From positions 1-34,318 of IMG/VR virus record IMGVR_UViG_3300024520_000279: a stretch of DNA of 34,318 nucleotides; one strand, 5' to 3'. The translations under genes and the position numbers were made by a program. Source of the DNA: a virus. Shown piece after piece: positions 30,307 to 31,799 of the stretch. Numbering within the stretch: position 1 is the first letter of the stretch; each line of letters begins with the position of its first letter. The notes beneath the pieces were generated by a model. The model saw only the letters and a list, made by a program, of their open reading frames with translations, was not told where the DNA came from and searched no databases.

Positions 30307-30561
30307 TTAACAACACTTATTAAGCGCTGTACATATTTCAATAGCTTCTTCTTTTTCAAACGCTTCGCACATTGACCTATTCCAGTAACATTGTTTTGTC
30401 ATCCACTTTCCGCCTTTAGTATCAATAATCGTGTATCCAAAACAGCAGTGCGCGCTTATACTTTTTTTAATTATTATATATCTATCAGTATTGCCAATAT
30501 CGGACATACTTAATTCCTCGTTTTTATATATTTTACAGCTTTCAGTTTTAGTTAAATGCAT
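30307..30561 (-). CDS. Cysteine-rich hypothetical phage protein (84 aa)
   Basis: Seven cysteines in 84 residues, including HCCFGY (about 38-43) and a terminal CC. The middle IIDTKGGKWMTKQCYWNRSMCEAF, followed by the helix EKEEAIEICTALN, is a recognisable arrangement of small phage proteins of unknown role. The ATG at 30561 overlaps the stop of the leucine-rich repeat gene by 10 bp, so the two are coupled. An alternative start at the next Met (about codon 19) would shorten it to 66 residues. Confidence 0.55.
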   Translation of the reverse strand: MHLTKTESCKIYKNEELSMSDIGNTDRYIIIKKSISAHCCFGYTIIDTKGGKWMTKQCYWNRSMCEAFEKEEAIEICTALNKCC

Positions 30562-30953
30562 ATGTCTATGTTTGTAAAGGATTCTTTAAGCTTTTTAGCA
30601 ACCTCAATACTTATGTTATTTTCTATTAAATAGAGTTCTGTTATCCGTGTCTTAGGCAGTACCCTTGCCAGTTCTTCACAGCCCTTGTCACCTATCTTAT
30701 TGTTATTTAAAGAGAGCCATTGTATCTGTGTACTAGGCAGTACTTTTGCGAGTTCTTCACAGCCCTTGTCACCTATCTTATTGTTATTTAAAAAGAGCCG
30801 TTTTATCTGTGTCCTAGGCAGTACCCTAAAACATAAAAGCAGAAGAAATATTAGAACTGATGCCAGTTCTTTACAGCCCTTGTCACCTATTTCATTGCTA
30901 TCTAAATCAAGAGTATCACCATCTATTAGTTCTAATATTTCTTCTGCTTTCAT
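30552..30953 (-). CDS. Leucine-rich repeat (ribonuclease inhibitor-like) protein with an in-frame insertion (133 aa)
   Basis: It contains about four LRR units of 27 residues with the consensus LxLNNNKIGDKGCEELAxVLPxTxI. This is the ribonuclease-inhibitor-like LRR class, which usually mediates protein-protein contact. DNA repeats have an 81-bp period (starts of a common motif at 30681 and 30762), but the next is 114 bp away (30876). The extra 33 bp encodes IFLLLLCFRVL (residues 35-45), which breaks the pattern between ASV and PRTQ. The protein has no signal peptide. LRR proteins are rare in phages of this size. It is first in an operon driven by the promoter at 30993-31000 and coupled to the next gene. 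Confidence 0.75.
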   Translation of the reverse strand: MKAEEILELIDGDTLDLDSNEIGDKGCKELASVLIFLLLLCFRVLPRTQIKRLFLNNNKIGDKGCEELAKVLPSTQIQWLSLNNNKIGDKGCEELARVLPKTRITELYLIENNISIEVAKKLKESFTNIDICI

Positions 30954-30959
30954 GTTTTA
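30827..30959. repeat. 32-nt inverted repeat in the LRR gene (30827-30858 and 30928-30959)
   Basis: The plus-strand segment 30827-30858 matches the reverse complement of 30928-30959 at 31 of 32 positions. The right arm is the gene's own start (start codon plus codons 2-9). The left arm corresponds to the 33-bp insertion that disrupts the repeat unit. The spacing between arms is 69 nt. Confidence 0.9.
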
Positions 30960-30970
30960 CGGTTTTTAGT

Positions 30971-31040
30971 TTATTAATTGGTTCCTATACTACAAACATA
31001 CCCAAGGCATCAACACAAAAAAAATCTTAATTGGTTGAAT
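30971..31040. repeat. 70-bp promoter block duplicated at 31707-31776
   Basis: The two 70-bp blocks differ by one substitution and two single-base homopolymer indels. Both are in the same orientation and contain the TATGTTTG element and the AACCAATTAA pair. The further upstream palindrome is diverged between them. Confidence 0.9.
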
Positions 31041-31063
31041 TTTTATACCCCTATTTATAGGTA
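30993..31063 (-). promoter_or_regulatory. Promoter A with upstream palindrome, for the LRR operon
   Basis: The minus strand has TATGTTTG at 31000-30993. A palindrome related to O1 and O2, CCTAT-TT-ATAGG within TACC...GGTA (31048-31063), lies 47 nt upstream. A TTTG is found at 31019-31016, but its 15-nt spacing is short. The AACCAATTAA decamer flanks the core on both sides (minus strand; plus-strand 30973-30982 and 31026-31035). The start codon at 30953 is about 33 nt downstream of the expected start site. Confidence 0.65.
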
Positions 31064-31194
31064 TATTGTATTTCTTTATTATCCTCTACATTGACAACAA
31101 ATTTACCGTGACATGTGCTCTTGCAAGATGTCAGGAATAGTACAGCTATACATATAGCTATCACAATAAATATTTTACTTTTTAGTGTTTTCAT
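31051..31194 (-). CDS. Small lipoprotein (47 aa)
   Basis: The ATG at 31194-31192 starts MKTLKSKIFIVIAICIAVLF, a clear signal sequence, followed by the lipobox L-T-S-C (Cys24). The mature part has only 24 residues (CKSTCHGKFVVNVEDNKEIQ and four more). The stop is at 31051-31053, within the diverged palindrome of promoter A. Small lipoproteins of this size in phages can be Rz1-like outer-membrane spanins or superinfection-exclusion factors. The location in the accessory operon, away from the holin-like gene, makes exclusion more likely. Not certain. Confidence 0.6.
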   Translation of the reverse strand: MKTLKSKIFIVIAICIAVLFLTSCKSTCHGKFVVNVEDNKEIQYTYK

Positions 31195-31629: not shown

Positions 31630-31661
31630 AAAAAAAAGGGAGGCATACCCCTACACCTCCC
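31630..31661 (-). terminator. Strong rho-independent terminator in the leader of 31362-31595
   Basis: On the minus strand GGGAGGTGTA pairs with TATGCCTCCC (10 bp, two G-T wobbles) around a GGGG tetraloop, followed by T8 (31637-31630). It lies about 65-95 nt after the expected start of transcription from promoter B and 35 nt before the ATG at 31595. Confidence 0.85.
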
Positions 31662-31673
31662 AGTAATATAGCT

Positions 31674-31724
31674 ATGAAAAAATTGCTTTTATTTTATAGT
31701 TTTAGGTTATTAATTGGTTTCTAT
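31674..31724 (-). ncRNA. Possible short leader RNA or small RNA from promoter B
   Basis: Promoter B should start RNA near 31722-31724, and the terminator at 31630-31661 would end it, giving a transcript of roughly 90 nt with no ATG on that strand. It could be an attenuated leader of the downstream operon, or a stable small RNA in its own right. The span given is the non-terminator part. Confidence 0.4.
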
Positions 31725-31728
31725 ACTA

Positions 31729-31799
31729 CAAACATACCCAAAGGCATCAACACAAAAAAATCTTAATTGGTTGAATATTTTTACACCTAGAAATGGGGG
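31729..31799 (-). promoter_or_regulatory. Promoter B with diverged upstream palindrome
   Basis: The minus strand has TATGTTTG at 31736-31729. A diverged O1/O2-type site (plus-strand ACCTAGAAATGGGG at 31785-31798, 11 of 14 matching O1) has its near edge 47 nt upstream. The core block is a near-perfect duplicate of promoter A. Confidence 0.6.

Follow-up and report, generated by a model that had tools for sequence, protein, structure and literature searches.

A probable template-switch insertion in a phage LRR gene and its predicted hairpin over the start codon

New reverse-complement stems can arise in a single event by template switching, a described mechanism (PMC8794818). In the cases reported there, a reverse-complement copy of a nearby sequence is inserted in one event and a long hairpin is made, as appears to have happened at the locus described here; those cases lie in eukaryotic microRNA and rRNA genes and were compared with reconstructed ancestors, whereas ours lies in a phage protein gene, is compared with internal repeats only and has its stem over a start codon. 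Yeast CYC1 and phage T4 rIIB gave the first recorded cases of quasipalindrome template switching, according to the work cited in PMC7202029. As far as that article and the works it cites describe them, quasipalindrome-associated mutations in E. coli and phage T4 use the nascent strand as a foldback template before returning, a route that the present insert would share; the events described there perfect an existing imperfect inverted repeat, whereas here none is evident beyond a few bases and about 33 nt were added. Template switching in yeast coding genes (PMC8604942) likewise altered the protein sequence, although by arm homogenisation and spacer inversion that led to substitutions rather than by an 11-residue in-frame insertion. 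The mutation class is already known, and the twist here is a self-sequestered start codon.

The gene lies in the 34,318-base record of an uncultivated virus, the whole of which was analyzed and is hereafter called the window. Its 133-residue product matches Pfam LRR_6 above the curated cut-off (E = 1.2e-11; 44.2 bits vs 23.4) and, by sequence, ribonuclease inhibitor in the PDB (E = 1.6e-20). Like ribonuclease-inhibitor-type LRR proteins (Pfam LRR_6), the phage protein consists of 27-residue units of a strand and a helix; it differs from them in being very small (about four units) and in having one unit enlarged by 11 residues.

Insert and inverted repeat in the first LRR unit

The gene, its interrupted unit and two uninterrupted units that serve as internal controls are located as follows.

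30552..30953, minus strand: ORF of the LRR protein, 133 aa, with ribonuclease-inhibitor-like LRR_6 repeats (ORF list, Pfam and PDB match)
30828..30860, minus strand: 33-nt excess (11 codons) within the first LRR unit, with ambiguous ends, recognized by the 114 vs 81 nt spacing and the match to the inverted start region
30690..30770, minus strand: uninterrupted 81-nt LRR unit, internal control, placed by repeat spacing
30609..30689, minus strand: uninterrupted 81-nt LRR unit, internal control, placed by repeat spacing

Direct-repeat analysis of the gene gave unit spacings of 81 nt and 114 nt, the latter at the first unit, which bears out an earlier note's claim that the spacing grows by 33 nt at one unit. 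The 33-nt excess is absent from the other units of the gene. Once it is removed, the 81-nt unit is complete and no native repeat sequence has been lost. The excess encodes residues 35–45, IFLLLLCFRVL, the in-frame translation that had been claimed, and the ORF stays open through residue 133. About 30 nearly identical nt (ATAGGTGACAAGGGCTGTRAAGAACTSGCA) are common to the LRR units between 30658 and 30906; this near-identity suggests that units were recently duplicated or converted within the gene, in the stretch where the putative template switch also lies. Counts of synonymous and nonsynonymous differences between the repeat units were set aside as evidence of selection; the units arose by within-gene duplication.

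The insert forms part of one arm of an inverted repeat whose other arm spans the start of the gene.

30823..30861, unstranded: inverted-repeat arm 1, which contains the insert (36/39 to arm 2)
30862..30924, unstranded: 63-nt spacer between the arms, the loop of the predicted hairpin
30925..30963, unstranded: inverted-repeat arm 2, the source, comprising 10 nt of leader, the start codon and the first codons (36/39 to arm 1)

The two 39-nt arms are complementary at 36 positions (92%), with a 23-nt perfect core, three mismatches and a best stretch of 34/36, and they were the sole inverted pair in the repeat analysis of the gene. Their score of 30 was the maximum for repeats within 300 nt across the window (runner-up, 22), and the best score in 40 dinucleotide-preserving shuffles of the window was 17 under the one scoring scheme used. 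The inverted repeat is real and chance is excluded. The insert itself matches the inverted start region at 31 of 33 positions in seven equivalent placements, with any first position between 30823 and 30829. The gene's start is therefore present as an inverted copy much as the earlier note had described it, although the count of 31 of 32 nt, nearly right, needs slight correction to the figures given here and the arms reach slightly beyond the reported 30819–30959, to 30963. In one placement the triplet AGT precedes the insert in both target and source; across all placements, homology at the switch points is 2–3 nt, depends on the placement and is equally expected by chance.

Reading frame, fold and predicted start-codon hairpin

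We considered what the insert would do to the protein and to the mRNA. By length, one insert in three would keep the frame, and among 69 start regions of the phage's own genes, 33 are open in a given frame when inverted; the open frame is therefore weak evidence of selection at best, and nothing in the data shows selection for the insert. In a single-sequence structure model the LRR solenoid is kept (mean pLDDT 85.3; no alignment was used, and of five models two scored poorly, with means of 34–35). In this model the interrupted unit has a helix at residues 24–41, compared with 13-residue helices at 62–74 and 89–101 in the next two units, and the prediction is less certain in the stretch just after it (block mean 62). 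Thus, the 11 residues IFLLLLCFRVL would lengthen the helix of the first repeat without destroying the LRR fold, as the modeling of the interrupted repeat proposed earlier now predicts; the fold appears tolerant of the insert and the protein, if made, may be sound. A structure search with the model returned viral LRR proteins, mostly from giant viruses, which at the level of the model shows the same fold and not kinship. Of the suggestion that the gene kept its frame and may still be functional and selected, the open frame and a tolerable fold stand, but the inference of selection is weak and the start codon is predicted to be buried. This burial in the mRNA is a consequence absent from the earlier note.

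30951..30953, minus strand: start codon, predicted to be unpaired with probability 0.69 while the transcript stops short of the insert and 0.001 with the insert transcribed
30993..31000, minus strand: Bacteroidetes -7-like box TATGTTTG, putative promoter upstream of the LRR gene (consensus from PMC6847099)
30307..30561, minus strand: next ORF, whose start overlaps the LRR gene stop by 10 nt

In the mRNA, the insert would pair with the gene's own start and enclose the start codon in a hairpin of up to 39 bp. The 206-nt 5' region of the transcript has a predicted fold of -63.6 kcal/mol (z = -6.8). The transcription start was placed from the promoter-like box only. With three assumed transcript starts, the predicted cost of opening positions -12 to +13 is 1.3–1.9 kcal/mol if the transcript stops immediately ahead of the insert and 24–29 kcal/mol when the insert is included. 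Predicted costs for the start regions of 27 other ORFs of the window range from 1.1 to 9.5 kcal/mol, and the LRR gene contains no second in-frame ATG, GTG or TTG. In Flavobacterium johnsoniae, structure around the start codon lowers and tunes initiation, without help from Shine-Dalgarno sequences (PMC6847099).

Given an opening cost of around 25 kcal/mol against 1.1–9.5 kcal/mol elsewhere, and no other in-frame start, translation of the LRR protein is probably strongly reduced, with little protein made. The hairpin should sharply lower initiation; it may also make the mRNA a target for RNase III and lower the output of the next gene downstream, whose 10-nt overlap with the LRR gene stop makes translational coupling possible. 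Silencing may be incomplete, because transcription reaches the 3' arm some 60 nt later, which gives ribosomes a chance to load first. We take the allele to be, most likely, a strong down-mutation in a phage accessory gene that is dispensable.

Origin of the insert

The copy inside the first unit appears, from the internal repeats, to be the derived one, since the start region consists of leader and normal N-terminal codons and the other 27-residue units lack the 11-residue excess. These internal units without the insert supplied the comparison for which the earlier note had looked to an insertion-free LRR homologue; searches of phages, viral contigs and genome contigs, DNA-pattern searches and distant blastn found no usable homologue of the LRR protein. 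The genome-contig search gave one generic LRR match, in a Chlamydiia genome, that is not usable as a relative, and two rows of the viral-contig alignment were the gene's own repeat units rearranged. No LRR_6 match was found in six viral contigs with related terminases, most of them short fragments, and the next gene (30307–30561) had no relatives among viral contigs.

The insert is a reverse-complement copy of a source about 60–100 nt away, followed by a return to the original template at or near the exit point. This inverted, local and templated insertion and its complete target support a template switch with return, and such an origin is very likely on the sequence evidence; the little homology at the joints is as such a switch predicts but is also expected by chance. 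The sequence of events that we infer, including the strand involved, would begin on a growing coding-sense strand that already carried the start of the gene and the greater part of the first LRR unit. Its 3' end would fold back about 60 nt onto the just-made start region, or switch to the complementary strand, and copy about 33 nt of the start region in reverse. Return to the original template at the exit point would then leave an inverted copy of the start with the native sequence kept. The two mismatches could be either later mutations or the mark of a less tidy event. The hairpin-mediated template switch claimed in the earlier note is thus well supported by the sequence (31/33 templated, clean return), and we regard a single such mutation in DNA replication, with the resulting strong down-mutation of a dispensable accessory gene, as probably the best explanation.

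Other explanations fit these observations less well. A foldback chimera that arose in library preparation and entered the contig would be an amplification or assembly artefact; the source is an uncultivated virus record, and chimeras of strand-displacement amplification are mostly inverted-repeat (PMC9484634). However, such chimeras are typically one-way, with two opposite-strand alignments that overlap extensively (PMC9484634), whereas here the sequence returns to the original strand and the unit is intact. Moreover, 2 of the 33 copied positions do not match the source, although almost no differences would be expected had the copy just been made in vitro, and the insert leaves the ORF in frame; we judge an artefact unlikely. 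Inversion of the 63-nt spacer by a DNA invertase acting at the repeats would explain a short segment flanked by near-perfect inverted repeats, but arm 2 is an ordinary LRR gene start and arm 1 interrupts a repeat unit. To our knowledge, the spacer is also far below the segment lengths that known site-specific invertases flip, and this reading is hardly credible.

The strong stem over the start codon could instead be a selected regulatory hairpin, a translational switch responding to timing, temperature or co-transcriptional coupling that holds the LRR gene off. Consistent with this, the C-to-T difference opposite the start codon, as read from the sequence, keeps a G-U pair and leaves the pairing almost intact; yet a near-exact self-copy is the expected product of mutation alone, and we find selection for the hairpin quite improbable. 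A combined scenario, in which a one-step template switch installed a start-enclosing RNA switch, with the protein still readable and the hairpin lock then kept by selection, strikes us as highly improbable.

Under the preferred reading, a template switch that became a down-mutation, the locus offers a clear natural phage example in which one replication error adds residues and builds a predicted RNA hairpin over the gene's own start. If confirmed, it would mean that an in-frame change need not be a harmless one, and that a gene can be silenced, with neither a frameshift nor a stop, by a self-templated inverted copy of its start. The case comes from a single contig without relatives.

Promoter region and phage setting

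Flavobacterial siphophages have terminase, portal and tail genes similar to those of the window. Identity is 41% between the terminase and its counterpart in Cellulophaga phage phi19:1, and 31% between the portal and that of Tenacibaculum phage JQ, its nearest relative. In phage JQ, the interval between terminase and portal holds several small genes; the LRR gene (30552–30953, minus strand) also has small ORFs as neighbors in an interval of this type, which suggests that it is an accessory phage gene.

The fourth base of the -7-like box TATGTTTG is G, which the refined consensus TAHHTTTG disfavors (PMC6847099), and a near-identical copy of the box is found at 31729–31736. The surrounding putative promoter region of about 90 nt occurs twice, at 30964–31053 before the LRR gene and at 31700–31789 just after the terminase gene; the copies are 92–95% identical in two blocks and each contains TATGTTTG. 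About 70 nt past the second box, an intrinsic-terminator-like element on the minus strand (31630–31663) consists of GGGAGGTGTAGGGGTATGCCTCCC followed by a T run, and a short RNA or attenuator is possible there. A small ORF on the minus strand (31051–31194) has a lipoprotein-like start (MKTLKSKIFIVIAICIAVLFLTSCKS...), and its leader and the LRR gene have a CGTAAAACATGAAA-like start context in common. The second-best inverted repeat of the window is a palindrome, TACCCAT(A/T)(A/T)ATGGGTA, present in two copies at 2288–2363 between divergent genes; these copies are probable repressor operators.
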